DNA of 5,041 bases from Clostridia bacterium (GTDB lineage Bacteria; UBA6262; WVXT01; JAUXBS01), in NCBI GenBank assembly GCA_030618495.1, contig JAUXDE010000112.1, positions 1-5,041 of the forward strand, written 5' to 3'. The notes under the pieces were generated by a model that worked only from the letters and a program-made list of their open reading frames with translations, searched no databases and was not told the DNA's origin. The position numbers were made by a program, and so were the translations under genes. This document shows, one piece after another, positions 157-5,041 of this stretch (positions are counted from its first letter, which is position 1; the number at the start of each line of letters is the position of its first letter).

Positions 157-1503
157 TTAGAGACAGCACACTAGTTCAGCGGCTATACGTTTATTCAGTT
201 CCTCTGATTTATTCTTATTTGTGGATTCCGTGATAATGCGTATTATGGGCTCAGTGTTAGAGCTTCTCAGGTGAACCCAGGAATTTGCCCATTCAATTTT
301 TATTCCATCTGTCAAATCCATTTTCTCATCCTTGTATTTTTCCTTGAACTGGGCTAATATTTTTTTTGCGCTTTCGGGATGGCAGGTGATTTTGTCCTTG
401 CAAACGTAGTATTTCGGGATTTCTTCGGCAAGTTGTGAAATGCTCTTGCGGGTTTGGGCCATGTACTGCAGAATAAGGGCAATACCTGCAAGGCTGTCCC
501 TGCCATAGTGTACCCTGGGGTCTATTACGCCCCCGTTACCCTCACCTCCGATAACCGCCTTTTTTTCCTTCATTGTTTCGGATACGTTCACTTCACCGAC
601 TTTTGTCCTTAAAACAGGGCAGTTGTGCTGATTCGCAATATCGTCAAAGGCCCTGGTGGTGGAAAGGTTTGTTACAACGAGTCCCTTATTCTTTTGAATA
701 ATGAATTTCTCGGCAAGGCATAATGAATATTCTTCTCCGATTATCCTGCCTGTTTCAGAGACTACTGCGAGCCTGTCGGCGTCTGCATCCTGGGCAAAAC
801 CAATATCGGCTCCGGTTTCAGAAACCGCGCCGGAGAGTTCTTTGAGGTTTTCCGGAATGGGTTCAGGGTTATGCGGAAAAATGCTGTCCGTATCGCAGTT
901 AATTTTTGTTATTTCACATCCCAGCGCTTTCAGGAATTTCGGGGTTATGATACTTCCCGCGCCATTACAGCTGTCCAGGACCACTTTAAACTTTCTTCTG
1001 CTTATCAGGTCCACGTCAGCGTGTGCCAGCACCCTGTTTATGTGTTTTTCATTAGCGGTGCTGTCTTCTATAACGGGTTTAATCTTCTTTTTGGGGACTT
1101 CTTTGAAATTCCGCTTGTTGTAAATCTCAAGTAATATTTTCCCTTCTTTTTCATTTAAATATATTCCATTGTTTTTAAAGAACTTCAATCCATTCCATTC
1201 AGCGGGATTGTGGCTTGCTGAAATTATTATTCCGCCATCCGCTTTAAGTTCTTTAACCATTATCTGGCAGGATGGAGTAGGGCAGATACCAAGGTCTATG
1301 ATTTCGCATCCTGTTGAAGAAAGGCTTTCAAAAAGGTGTTTCTTTATGATTTCACCGGACATCCTGGTATCCCTGCCGACAACGATACGGCCCATTTTCA
1401 TGTAAGTTCCGAAAGCGCAGGCAAACCTTTTAATGTGCTCCGGGAGAAGGGTTTTAGCATAAATACCGCGCACACCCGATATTCCGATTATTAATGAACT
1501 CAT
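157..1503 (-). CDS. glmM: Phosphoglucosamine mutase / phosphomannomutase family enzyme
   Basis: This is a complete 448-residue alpha-D-phosphohexomutase, which interconverts hexose 6-phosphate and 1-phosphate in the cytosol. The family signatures appear in order: N-terminal GISGVRG (7-13) and GRDTR (43-47); the catalytic phosphoserine loop SASHNP (95-100, Ser97); the metal loop DADADR (239-244), normally DGDADR; the sugar-specificity loop GEGNGG (320-325); and the C-terminal phosphate-binding loop RSSNTEP (413-419). Length is normal for the family. The ATG start is supported by AAAGGA seven bases upstream. The GEGNGG loop differs from GEQSGH of classical bacterial GlmM and resembles archaeal-type GlmM and some phosphomannomutases. 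The substrate (GlcN, Man or Glc phosphate) therefore cannot be fixed from sequence. The family is certain; the glmM name is the likeliest choice, about 60 percent. It is transcribed away from aspS and probably feeds UDP-GlcNAc or another envelope-sugar pathway. Confidence 0.93.
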   Translation of the reverse strand: MSSLIIGISGVRGIYAKTLLPEHIKRFACAFGTYMKMGRIVVGRDTRMSGEIIKKHLFESLSSTGCEIIDLGICPTPSCQIMVKELKADGGIIISASHNPAEWNGLKFFKNNGIYLNEKEGKILLEIYNKRNFKEVPKKKIKPVIEDSTANEKHINRVLAHADVDLISRRKFKVVLDSCNGAGSIITPKFLKALGCEITKINCDTDSIFPHNPEPIPENLKELSGAVSETGADIGFAQDADADRLAVVSETGRIIGEEYSLCLAEKFIIQKNKGLVVTNLSTTRAFDDIANQHNCPVLRTKVGEVNVSETMKEKKAVIGGEGNGGVIDPRVHYGRDSLAGIALILQYMAQTRKSISQLAEEIPKYYVCKDKITCHPESAKKILAQFKEKYKDEKMDLTDGIKIEWANSWVHLRSSNTEPIIRIITESTNKNKSEELNKRIAAELVCCL

Positions 1504-1561: not shown

Positions 1562-1596
1562 AAGATAATGGAATTTTCAAGTATAATTATTTATTT

Positions 1597-1684
1597 AAAA
1601 AACCGGGACGGTTCTGTTTTTTTTTAGTATTATATGTTTTTATTAGAGATTTTGTAAAAAAAACCAGAACCGTCCCGGTTTTTT
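1597..1684. repeat. Long A/T-flanked inverted repeat (REP/MITE-like palindrome or bidirectional terminator-like hairpin)
   Basis: The left arm starts AAAAAACCGGGACGGTTCTG (1597-1616) and is matched perfectly by the reverse complement of 1665-1684. After one mismatch (T1617 against C1664), eight more A/T pairs follow (1618-1625 with 1656-1663), giving 29-base arms around an AT-rich 30-base loop (1626-1655). Each arm is also self-complementary: AACCG-GGA-CGGTT at 1601-1613 and AACCG-TCC-CGGTT at 1668-1680. Both halves are followed by a T run and AGTAT. The structure resembles an intrinsic terminator in both directions. However, it sits between two divergent genes and outside both predicted transcripts, so a terminator role is not expected. 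GGGACGGTTCT-type palindromes are, from memory, found near IS200-like/RAYT transposases. That link is unverified, and there is no transposase or clear target duplication here. Confidence 0.8.
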
Positions 1685-1698
1685 AGTATGTTTTTTGT

Positions 1699-1727
1699 TT
1701 GACATAAATTATACTATATGATAACAT
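1699..1727 (+). promoter_or_regulatory. Putative promoter of the aspS operon with extended -10
   Basis: A perfect -35 box TTGACA (1699-1704) is followed by exactly 17 bases and TAACAT (1722-1727, four of six matches). The -10 is preceded by TG plus one base (1719-1721), the extended -10 motif, which can compensate for a weak hexamer. Transcription would begin near 1733-1735, giving a leader of about 33-35 bases before aspS. The promoter begins 14 bases after the end of the large inverted repeat. Confidence 0.65.
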
Positions 1728-1767: not shown

Positions 1768-3564
1768 ATGAAACTAAGAAGAACGCATAGTTGCAGTGAT
1801 TTGAGAAAAAAAGATATCGGAAAAGAAGTAATAATTTCCGGGTGGGTTCATAAATGGAGAGACCACGGTGGAGTAATATTTATTGACCTGCGTGACAGGG
1901 AGGGCATTACTCAGGTAGTGTTCGGCAAAGATGACAGCGCGGGCCCCGATTCCGCGCTTGCCAAATCCGCGCGCGGGTTAAGAAATGAATGGGTCATATC
2001 CGTTAAGGGAAATGTTGAAGCCCGTCCTGCGGGCACCGTTAATGATAAACTGGATACCGGGGAAATTGAAATTCTTGCCGGTGAAATGGAGATATTAAAT
2101 AAATCAAAAACCCCGCCGTTCGATGTTTTTGGCAAGGAAGATGTTTCGGATGAAATAAAAATGAAGTACCGTTATATTGACCTGCGGAAACAAAAGATGA
2201 TGAACACGTTACTCCTGCGCAGTAAAGTGAACAAGGTGGTAAGGGATTTTTTCTACTCCGGGGGATTTGTTGAAGTGGAAACCCCGGTATTGACCAGGTC
2301 AACGCCCGAGGGGGCAAGGGATTACCTTGTGCCGAGCCGCATAGACAAAGGAAGTTTTTACGCAATGCCCCAGTCACCGCAGCTTTTCAAGCAGCTCCTG
2401 ATGGTTGCCGGACTGGACAGGTACTTCCAGATAGTGAAGTGTTTCAGGGATGAGGACCTCAGGAGGGATAGGCAGCCGGAGTTTACACAGATTGATTTTG
2501 AGATGTCTTTTGTAAACGAAGAGGATGTATGCGGCGTGATTGAGTCGCTTATCAAGGAAGTATTCAAGTCAGCAATAAATGTTGATGTTAAAACCCCCTT
2601 CCGGCGCATTGAGTACGCCGAAGCAATGAACAGGTTCGGTACGGACAGGCCGGATGCCAGGTTTGGAATGGAACTTGTGGATATATCGGAAATTGCCGCC
2701 GCCTGCGAGTTCAGGGTTTTTAAGGATGTTACCGGAAAGGGAGGTATGGTATCGGGGATAAACGTAGAGGGGGGAGCGTCGAAATTCAGCAGGAAGGACA
2801 TAGATGATTTAACTGTTATGGCGCAGGGAGACGGGGCAAAGGGGCTTGCCTGGATTAAGGTTACTTCTGAGGGGCCTGAATCGTCAATAGCGAAATTCTT
2901 CAAGAAGGAAGAACTGGATTCAATTATAAAGAAGATGAAAGCCCGCAAGGACGATCTGCTGCTGTTTGTGGCGGACAAACGAAAAGTTGCTTATGAAGTT
3001 TTGTCCAACCTTCGCCTGCATCTTGGGGAAAAACTAAATCTTATACCTCGGGATGATAAGGCTGTGTTTAGTTTTCTGTGGGTTATAGGACACCCCATGT
3101 TTGAGTATAACGATGATGAAAAGAGATGGGATGCGGTACATCATCCGTTCACCGCGCCCGATAAAGATAGTATAGAAAAATTGGACAAGAATGACCTTGA
3201 CGCAGGTGAATTAAGGTCCAGGGCATATGACCTGGTTCTTAACGGAATGGAGGTAGGTGGGGGGTCTATCAGGATTCACAGCAAGGAAATCCAGGAGAAG
3301 GTGTTTAATCTGCTTCAAATCAAGCCTGAAACTGCAAGGCAAAAATTCGGATTCTTACTTGATGCGCTGGAATACGGCGCTCCTCCGCATGGAGGATTTG
3401 CGTTTGGCATGGACAGGCTTATCATGGTACTGTCGGGCGCGCGTTCTATCAGGGATGTTATAGCTTTTCCAAAGACTCAGAGCGCATCCTGTCCGTTGAC
3501 CGGAGCGCCGTCCAAAATTACAGAGAAGCAATTAAAGGAACTCGATTTAAAAATCATTAAGTAG
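1768..3564 (+). CDS. aspS: Aspartate--tRNA ligase, bacterial type, possibly non-discriminating (Asp/Asn)
   Basis: This is a complete 598-residue class IIb aminoacyl-tRNA synthetase that attaches aspartate to tRNA in the cytosol. Domains in order are an N-terminal OB-fold that reads the anticodon (about 1-110), a catalytic core with motif 1 around FVEVETP (167-173) and motif 2 at [20 protein letters not shown] (226-245), a bacterial GAD insertion (about 300-425), and motif 3 with GGFAFGMDR (542-550). Expected substrate-site residues are present: the QSPQLFK segment (202-208), Arg227, Gln241, the HH pair at 458-459, Glu495, Arg502 and Arg550. Length matches the bacterial family (E. coli about 590). 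His33 and Gly89 align with the positions held by Leu and Lys in the tRNA-Asp-specific E. coli enzyme. His and Gly there mark relaxed enzymes that also charge tRNA-Asn. The start has only a weak site, GGGA, seven bases upstream. An in-frame ATG at 1744 is ruled out by TAG at 1762. It is the first gene of a probable two-gene or longer operon. Confidence 0.98.
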
Positions 3565-3596: not shown

Positions 3597-5041
3597 TTGC
3601 GCAAGATGAAAATGGTTTTCAGGCAATTTTTACTGAAATTGCTGAAGGTTACCAGGGAGAAGAAAACCGAAAGCCCTAAAAAGGGTAAAGAGAGTAAGCC
3701 GATATTATTCAGAGAATTGAATGTGCCCGCATGGGTTGTCGGGCTGGTGATATTTGTTTTGGTGATATGGATACTATGGGGGCAGTTCGGTCCGGGATGG
3801 CAGGGTATTTCCGGGCTCATTTTATTTGTTTCGATTGCAATTTACATCTATGCTTTTTATCTGCGGAGGTATAAGAGCAGTATTCTTGCCAGTAATGAAC
3901 TGGCGATGCTCCTGGGCCTTATAATAACCGTGATGGTATTGATTATGGTTGGAATAAAACTTCTTGCCCAGTCATATTCAATATCTATGAACTACCTTGT
4001 TCCCGTTGCCAGCGGTGTGATGCTGATAACGATGCTTATAAGTATTCCTCTTGCTTTAATTTCACTTCTGCTTTTGAGCGTTCTTCTGACGGTTGTCAAC
4101 GATTTTAATTTTAATTTCTTTCTGGTGGCGGTGATGGGCGGTCTTGCGGGCATATACAGCACTTATTCGGTGCGAAACAGGCGTGATATCACCAGGGCGG
4201 GATTGTTTGTCAGCGGCGCTAATATTTTTGCCATTCTGATGATTTATCTAATCAAGGGAGACTCGTTCATATTCATGTGGAAGGATATGATGTGGGGATT
4301 AGGCAGTGGTTTTCTTTCCGTTGTCCTGACTATAGGTATTTTGCCGTACCTTGAGGATGTTTTTTCCATCGTTACGAATATTAAGCTTCTTGAGCTTGCT
4401 GATTTCAATCAGCCGTTGTTGAAGAGATTGATGCTGGAGTCACCGGGAACTTATCATCATAGCCTGATAGTGGGTAATCTTGCGGAAACGGCGGCTGAAT
4501 TGATAAACGCGGATTCCCTCATGGTAAGGGTTGGAGCGTATTATCATGACATAGGAAAATTAAACAAGCCTGAATACTTTACGGAAAACCAGAGTAATCT
4601 TGCAAACAAGCATGAGGAGTTAACGCCAAACATGAGCAGCCTGATTGTAGTTTCTCATGTGAAAGACGGTGTTATTCTCGGGAAGAAACACAACTTGAAT
4701 AAACGCATCATTGACATCATTGAAGAGCATCATGGTACGGGTTTAATTCATTATTTTTACATGAAGGCTCTTGAAAAAGATAAATCGTCTTCGGTTGAAG
4801 AAATGAAGTACCGCTACCCGGGACCGAAACCAACAACCAGGGAAGCAGCTATAGTAATGCTTGCTGACAGTGTTGAAGCTGCGGCAAGAACACTTGAAGA
4901 ACCTTCTTTTGAACGTATATCGAATATGGTAAATACCATTATCAATAATAAATTTACCGATGGACAGCTGAATGACTGTAATATAACACTGGTGAACCTT
5001 CATAAGATAGCAGAAAGTTTTATAAATACGCTAACGGGCAT
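3597..5041 (+). CDS. 7TM-HD family cyclic-di-AMP phosphodiesterase (PgpH/YqfF-like), lacking the 7TMR-HDED domain; partial at the right edge
   Basis: 481 codons are visible without a stop. Residues 1-40 are basic and cytosolic. Hydrophobic helices lie at about 44-62, 70-88, 102-124, 133-153, 154-168, 172-190, 200-219 and 231-250. An HD phosphohydrolase domain follows (about 270-480). Its metal ligands are all visible: His288 in PGTYHHSL, His317-Asp318 in YYHDIGK, His354 in SHVKDG, His378-His379 in EEHHGTG, and Asp424 in LADSVEAA. These match PgpH, which hydrolyses c-di-AMP to pApA at the membrane. The sequence RYPGPKP (405-411) is also typical of the family. Normally about 250 extracellular residues (7TMR-HDED) separate the first and second helices; here the loop is about eight residues. 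The 32-base gap to aspS leaves no room for a missing domain upstream. By comparison with the family about 10-20 C-terminal residues are cut off by the window. In many bacteria this gene precedes ybeY, which may lie just beyond the edge. Substrate is inferred from family; c-di-AMP use in this organism is not shown. Confidence 0.93.
   Translation, partial: MRKMKMVFRQFLLKLLKVTREKKTESPKKGKESKPILFRELNVPAWVVGLVIFVLVIWILWGQFGPGWQGISGLILFVSIAIYIYAFYLRRYKSSILASNELAMLLGLIITVMVLIMVGIKLLAQSYSISMNYLVPVASGVMLITMLISIPLALISLLLLSVLLTVVNDFNFNFFLVAVMGGLAGIYSTYSVRNRRDITRAGLFVSGANIFAILMIYLIKGDSFIFMWKDMMWGLGSGFLSVVLTIGILPYLEDVFSIVTNIKLLELADFNQPLLKRLMLESPGTYHHSLIVGNLAETAAELINADSLMVRVGAYYHDIGKLNKPEYFTENQSNLANKHEELTPNMSSLIVVSHVKDGVILGKKHNLNKRIIDIIEEHHGTGLIHYFYMKALEKDKSSSVEEMKYRYPGPKPTTREAAIVMLADSVEAAARTLEEPSFERISNMVNTIINNKFTDGQLNDCNITLVNLHKIAESFINTLTG

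Follow-up and report, generated by a model that had tools for sequence, protein, structure and literature searches.

The gap between a glmM-type gene and the divergently transcribed aspS in the 5,041-nt stretch of Clostridia DNA analysed here (the window) holds a long palindrome, and the question is what kind of element it is and whether it serves either neighbour. We found two arms of 31 nt, 97% complementary, with 28 nt between them (Table 1). Folded as DNA, either strand reaches -28 to -30 kcal/mol vs a shuffle mean of about -7 (z about -11), and 0 of 200 shuffles equal it. Hence, the palindrome is real and far beyond chance. The first-pass annotation had drawn the same object slightly trimmed, at 1597-1684 with 29-nt arms, and its remark that each arm also folds alone holds: the terminator-like scan picks up AACCG-GGA-CGGTT (or its complement, with loop TCC) in both arms. 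The tandem direct repeat that it also described exists but is weak (22 nt, 77% identity), arising mostly because both halves end in a T run, with TAGTAT in common, in AT-rich DNA. No GTRG or CYAC occurs at 1561-1720, and a search of the window against Rfam matched no family.

Table 1. Features of the palindrome, its flanking genes and the aspS promoter, in window positions
Feature	Position	Strand	Basis or remark
Candidate miniature element, whole (palindrome, 28-nt loop)	1596..1685	.	Inverted repeat; DNA fold z -11 on both strands; covariance-model match of 77.5 bits (training copy)
Left terminal inverted repeat TAAAAAACCGGGACGGTTCTGTTTTTTTTTA	1596..1626	+	Inverted-repeat search; common to copies C26, C157 and C65
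Right terminal inverted repeat (reverse complement of left arm, one mismatch)	1655..1685	-	Inverted-repeat search
Small hairpin AACCG-GGA-CGGTT in left arm	1601..1613	+	Terminator-like scan; 5-pair form in part of the family only
Small hairpin AACCG-GGA-CGGTT in right arm	1668..1680	-	Terminator-like scan; 5-pair form in part of the family only
Loop, differing from the loops of other copies	1627..1654	.	Minus-strand promoter-like match 1658-1629 towards glmM; shuffle background not exceeded
GlmM-type phosphohexomutase	157-1503	-	Best NCBIfam model is archaeal-type TIGR03990
aspS (aspartyl-tRNA synthetase)	1768-3564	+	
aspS promoter, TTGACA-17-TAACAT (host DNA outside the element)	1699..1727	+	Promoter scan; conserved in same-genus G001, with homology ending at window 1689

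The palindrome has relatives in its own genome (1.69 Mb; assembly 98% complete, 179 contigs). The exact motif GGGACGGTTCTG occurs at three sites (C26, C157 and C42, which is the window), each time paired with its reverse complement. Clear copies besides that of the window lie at C26:11616-11677, C157:9361-9420 and C65:15044-15108; the C65 copy and one at C29 are paired copies carrying changes, and an additional half copy adjoins the one at C157. A covariance model (R2) was built from four copies, which match it by construction, and diverged copies outside its training set were found at C172 (E 3.7e-8), C81 (E 3.1e-6) and C29 (E 5.1e-6); C13 (E 0.027) and C90 (E 0.34, within an ORF) were treated as doubtful. 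The copies are dispersed dimers, and their number is low (four clear, about seven in all, paired). Only paired matches were counted, a one-mismatch scan of GGGACGGTTCT giving 41 matches vs 48 for the reversed control and so no enrichment. Similarly, only inverted-pair matches were used from a 16-mer scan of 84,980 genomes, where the number of matches listed, a lower bound, is near the chance level estimated for 257 Gb on two strands. All copies are intergenic, between convergent genes (C26), between same-strand genes (C157, C65, C29 and C172), at a stop codon (C81) or between divergent genes (window). Their ends agree, and their loops are unrelated in sequence and length. At C81, the start of the diverged copy overlaps the preceding gene's stop codon (L237 1519-1521), whose last bases also belong to the repeat.

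We compared these sites with G001, the only same-genus genome in the comparison (76% complete, about 77-82% identical). At the C26 site both convergent genes align in G001, and at the C157 site the end of a secA-like gene and the next gene align; the palindrome is absent from both, that is, from two of the two testable orthologous sites. Hence, the presence of the palindrome differs between relatives. With G001 at only about 77-82% identity, neither a clean empty site nor a target sequence is readable in this comparison. G001 has about three copies of its own, and the reciprocal comparison of its C168 copy with C171 of G000 is ambiguous. The first-pass annotation had held that a single copy, conserved at one place in all relatives, would speak against mobility; we found several dispersed copies in the genome, and the C26 and C157 sites lack the palindrome in G001.

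The window site has no orthologous gap in G001 because the gene upstream of aspS there is a GT87 glycosyltransferase gene in place of glmM. However, aspS and its promoter are conserved (TTGACATAAATTATACTATATGATAACATC vs TTGACATATATTATCCTATTTGATAATATC), and similarity stops at window 1689, the edge of the element. Since G001 keeps the promoter and lacks the palindrome, the conserved promoter does not depend on the palindrome, and by this alignment the window copy is not part of the conserved aspS control region. The GlmM-like gene (157-1503) best fits the archaeal-type model TIGR03990, and its closest relatives in same-genus and same-order genomes are only about 30% identical, those in G001 about 32%; hence, this gene may be a horizontal gain or may have replaced an earlier neighbour of aspS. 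The third gene of the window (3597-5041), which is cut by the window end, encodes a 7TM receptor with an intracellular HD hydrolase (PF07698 and HD domain) and probably starts with TTG.

The position of the palindrome raises the idea that it regulates aspS or glmM, as an operator, a leader hairpin or a promoter-bearing loop. The aspS -35 box (TTGACA at 1699-1704, with TAACAT at 1722-1727) lies about 14 nt to its right, and its loop holds the best minus-strand promoter match for glmM (11/12). However, promoter-like matches across the region are no more frequent than in shuffles, the other copies adjoin unrelated genes, Rfam has no match, and G001 retains the aspS promoter without the palindrome. 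We consider a regulatory site very unlikely. The first-pass annotation had placed the palindrome exactly between two divergent promoters. The divergent neighbours and an aspS promoter to the right of the element bear this out in part, but the promoter scan found no convincing glmM promoter to the left of it. The window copy is now probably a passive insertion beside the aspS promoter.

The strongest rival explanation is that the copies are bidirectional intrinsic terminators, with an A-run, a GC stem and a T-run readable on both strands, and that the window copy insulates the divergent units. It is the strongest because the copies have the right shape and often sit at stop codons. Stable RNA hairpins with T runs are predicted on both strands, terminator-like sites number 2 vs 0.2 expected from shuffles, and copies in this genome often hug stop codons (that at C26 fits exactly between convergent genes, and those at C81 and, weakly, C13 start at the stop). 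Yet the primary sequence of the stem, which a terminator does not need, is common to unrelated loci; this sequence is also found on either side of transposase genes in other phyla; the palindrome is absent from both testable orthologous gaps; and the window copy lies upstream of two divergent genes, where we found no evidence for the transcriptional insulator that had been proposed. Terminators are therefore an improbable explanation of the family, and individual copies may have a secondary use in termination.

The ends of the palindrome are common with repeats that flank transposase genes elsewhere. Genomes from other phyla (Thermohalobacter, Omnitrophota) have GGGACGGTTCT as well, there as the terminal motif on the flanks of Y1/HuH transposase genes that belong to the RAYT/TIRYT group. 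The RAYT-type gene of Thermohalobacter berrensis (L162) lies between inverted copies of GGGACGGTTCTCTTTTTCACCA, an inverted repeat that is exact over 22 nt. A whole palindrome precedes the Y1 match by 146 nt, a half copy follows the gene, and about a dozen more palindromes are scattered through that genome. The RAYT-type gene at L161, in an Omnitrophota MAG, is flanked by GGGACGGTTCTG; G044, a further Omnitrophota MAG, has a GGGACACATCCCA variant of the palindrome next to a RAYT, and this variant is likewise dispersed. The proteins of L161, L162, L165 and L152, the last from the genome under study, match Y1_Tnp above cut-off and have NHxH and YxxxNP motifs.

The L152 gene (C61) is the single Y1_Tnp gene of its own genome. 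It encodes 218 aa with the motifs NHVH, WQ and YVELNP, its best NCBIfam match is REP-associated tyrosine transposase (below the model cut-off), and perfect inverted repeats of 28 nt, ATAATTTGGGGACACGTACCTAATTATT, stand on either side of it (L152 1149-1982). Its ends, GGGGACACGTACCT, are related to those of the palindrome (GGGAC...) but different. Hence, in this 98%-complete genome we found no Y1 transposase with the exact ends of the palindrome, and the exact partner is missing, lost or promiscuous. The suggestion that copies would be found near RAYT genes was thus borne out in other genomes but not at the one RAYT here, which has a different terminal repeat. One TIRYT with GGGGACACGTACCT ends could promiscuously move the second family (GGGACGGTTCTG), with miniature elements outliving their cognate transposase or spreading independently of it, although we hold this to be unlikely. 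The stretch L152 1149-1982 is apparently an intact autonomous TIRtron. Directly beside its right repeat, at about L152 1990-2065, lies a palindrome of unrelated sequence, ACCGAGTTACCAA...TTGGTAACTCGGT, which may be a terminator or a further miniature element.

RAYT-like genes flanked by inverted repeats other than GTAG-type REPs have been named TIRYTs or TIRtrons (PMC3733652). Their repeats frequently have a GGGGWSAS core, and the TIR families are moderately abundant, with many dimers and some self-complementary members (Di Nocera et al. 2013, PMC3733652). TIRYTs fall mostly in subclass 2.1 of the TnpA-Y1 classification, which has NHVH and YIELNP motifs (Quentin et al. 2018, PMC6006769). Similarly, the palindrome family is dispersed, multi-copy and dimeric, and its repeat flanks a RAYT-like Y1 gene in inverted orientation at L162 and L161, though not in the genome under study, whose single RAYT has GGGGACACGTACCT ends. 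The family reads GGGACGGTTCT at the core, where most arms agree with GGGGWSAS at six of eight positions (element CGGGACGG), and the repeat of the genome's own RAYT, GGGGACAC, matches this core exactly. Unlike a TIRtron family, the palindromes have no cognate transposase bearing their exact ends in this genome. We file the element as a TIRYT-type miniature element, with a core that matches at only 6/8 and a genome in which our search found no cognate enzyme.

REPINs consist of two REPs in inverted orientation, for which movement in trans by RAYTs has been proposed; their fold is either a single long hairpin or a 'clover' of two hairpins (Bertels and Rainey 2011, PMC3116915). The palindrome likewise has inverted units around a variable spacer that form one long hairpin and could also fold as two small ones, and the two structural readings in the first-pass annotation are these two fold forms. 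REPINs are also non-autonomous, with mobilisation in trans by a RAYT proposed. In contrast, the palindrome has no GTAG-tagged REP and few copies vs hundreds. Since the GTAG foot is absent, the element is not a canonical REP.

Bacterial MITEs such as RUP, NEMIS and ERIC are 70-300 bp long and resemble degenerate insertion sequences (PMC3733652). The palindrome is, like them, short, gene-less and intergenic with terminal inverted repeats; unlike them, it has ends that match the repeats of Y1 transposases, and it shows no evident target-site duplication. Could it nevertheless be a MITE that belongs to a DDE-type insertion sequence, with no Y1 transposase involved? DDE-type MITEs have inverted terminal repeats around a short interior, which is the shape seen here. 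However, target-site duplication is not evident at the four best copies, and the same ends flank Y1 transposase genes. We consider a DDE origin extremely unlikely.

Within a copy, the two arms are more alike than are arms taken from different copies. Over 20 copies from several genomes, arms within one copy are 88% identical on average vs 69% between copies; this likeness was reached in 0 of 10,000 shuffles over the 20 copies and in 2 of 5040 permutations within the genome itself, figures that are descriptive since copies of common ancestry are not independent. For example, C26 has AAAAATAGGG on both sides and the window has AAAAACCGGG on both sides. Hence, the likeness of the arms agrees with paired spread of the unit. 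The hairpin within a single arm varies: it has 5 pairs in the window and C157, 4 in C26 and C65, and 2 or 3 in the G044 variants, several copies without GGGAC being not scorable. The self-complementary half is not conserved in all copies of the family, so recognition through that hairpin is uncertain.

Taken together, the palindrome at 1596-1685 is most likely a non-autonomous, REPIN/MITE-like mobile element with TIRYT-type ends. The dispersed copies, the two sites in G001 that lack the palindrome and the RAYT-flanking ends elsewhere support the earlier proposal of a RAYT/REP-type element or a MITE relic, which are equivalent here. The element would be a short variable loop between two inverted copies of a terminal repeat (AAAAAnnGGGACGGTTCTG) that a transposase recognises, and would be grouped with the terminal inverted repeats of TIRYTs, a branch of the RAYT-related Y1 (HuH) enzymes. 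In the single-stranded state, as on the lagging-strand template, the arms would fold, and a transposase supplied in trans would cut, join and re-insert the element, with no internal gene needed. We infer the recognition by a TIRYT, the single-strand route and the past movement of the window copy.

This reading adds a sparsely sampled lineage to those with TIRYT-type miniature repeats. The kind of repeat is already known, and the palindrome family is a real, fairly ordinary and largely explained member of it. TIRYT TIR families are far less studied than GTAG REPs. Closely similar ends occur in Bacillota and Omnitrophota, and Thermohalobacter has both transposase-linked and gene-less copies; together they offer suitable material for studying end recognition by a TIRYT.

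The 76%-complete assembly of G001 has no Y1 match. Within the same order, G003 and G004 also have no Y1 match, with at most one weak model match each, and G002 and G005 have Y1 genes together with palindromes with GGGGTCAGTTCTATTTTT ends. These palindromes (C95, C61 and C52 in G002; C107 in G005) form a sister family, and no Y1 gene with GGGGTCAGTTCTATTTTT ends is among the loci read in these two genomes. G005 also has two IS200-type tnpA copies (C14:65244-65604 and C49:8465-8825) with equal scores and the same in-frame TAA, that is, the same broken transposase twice.
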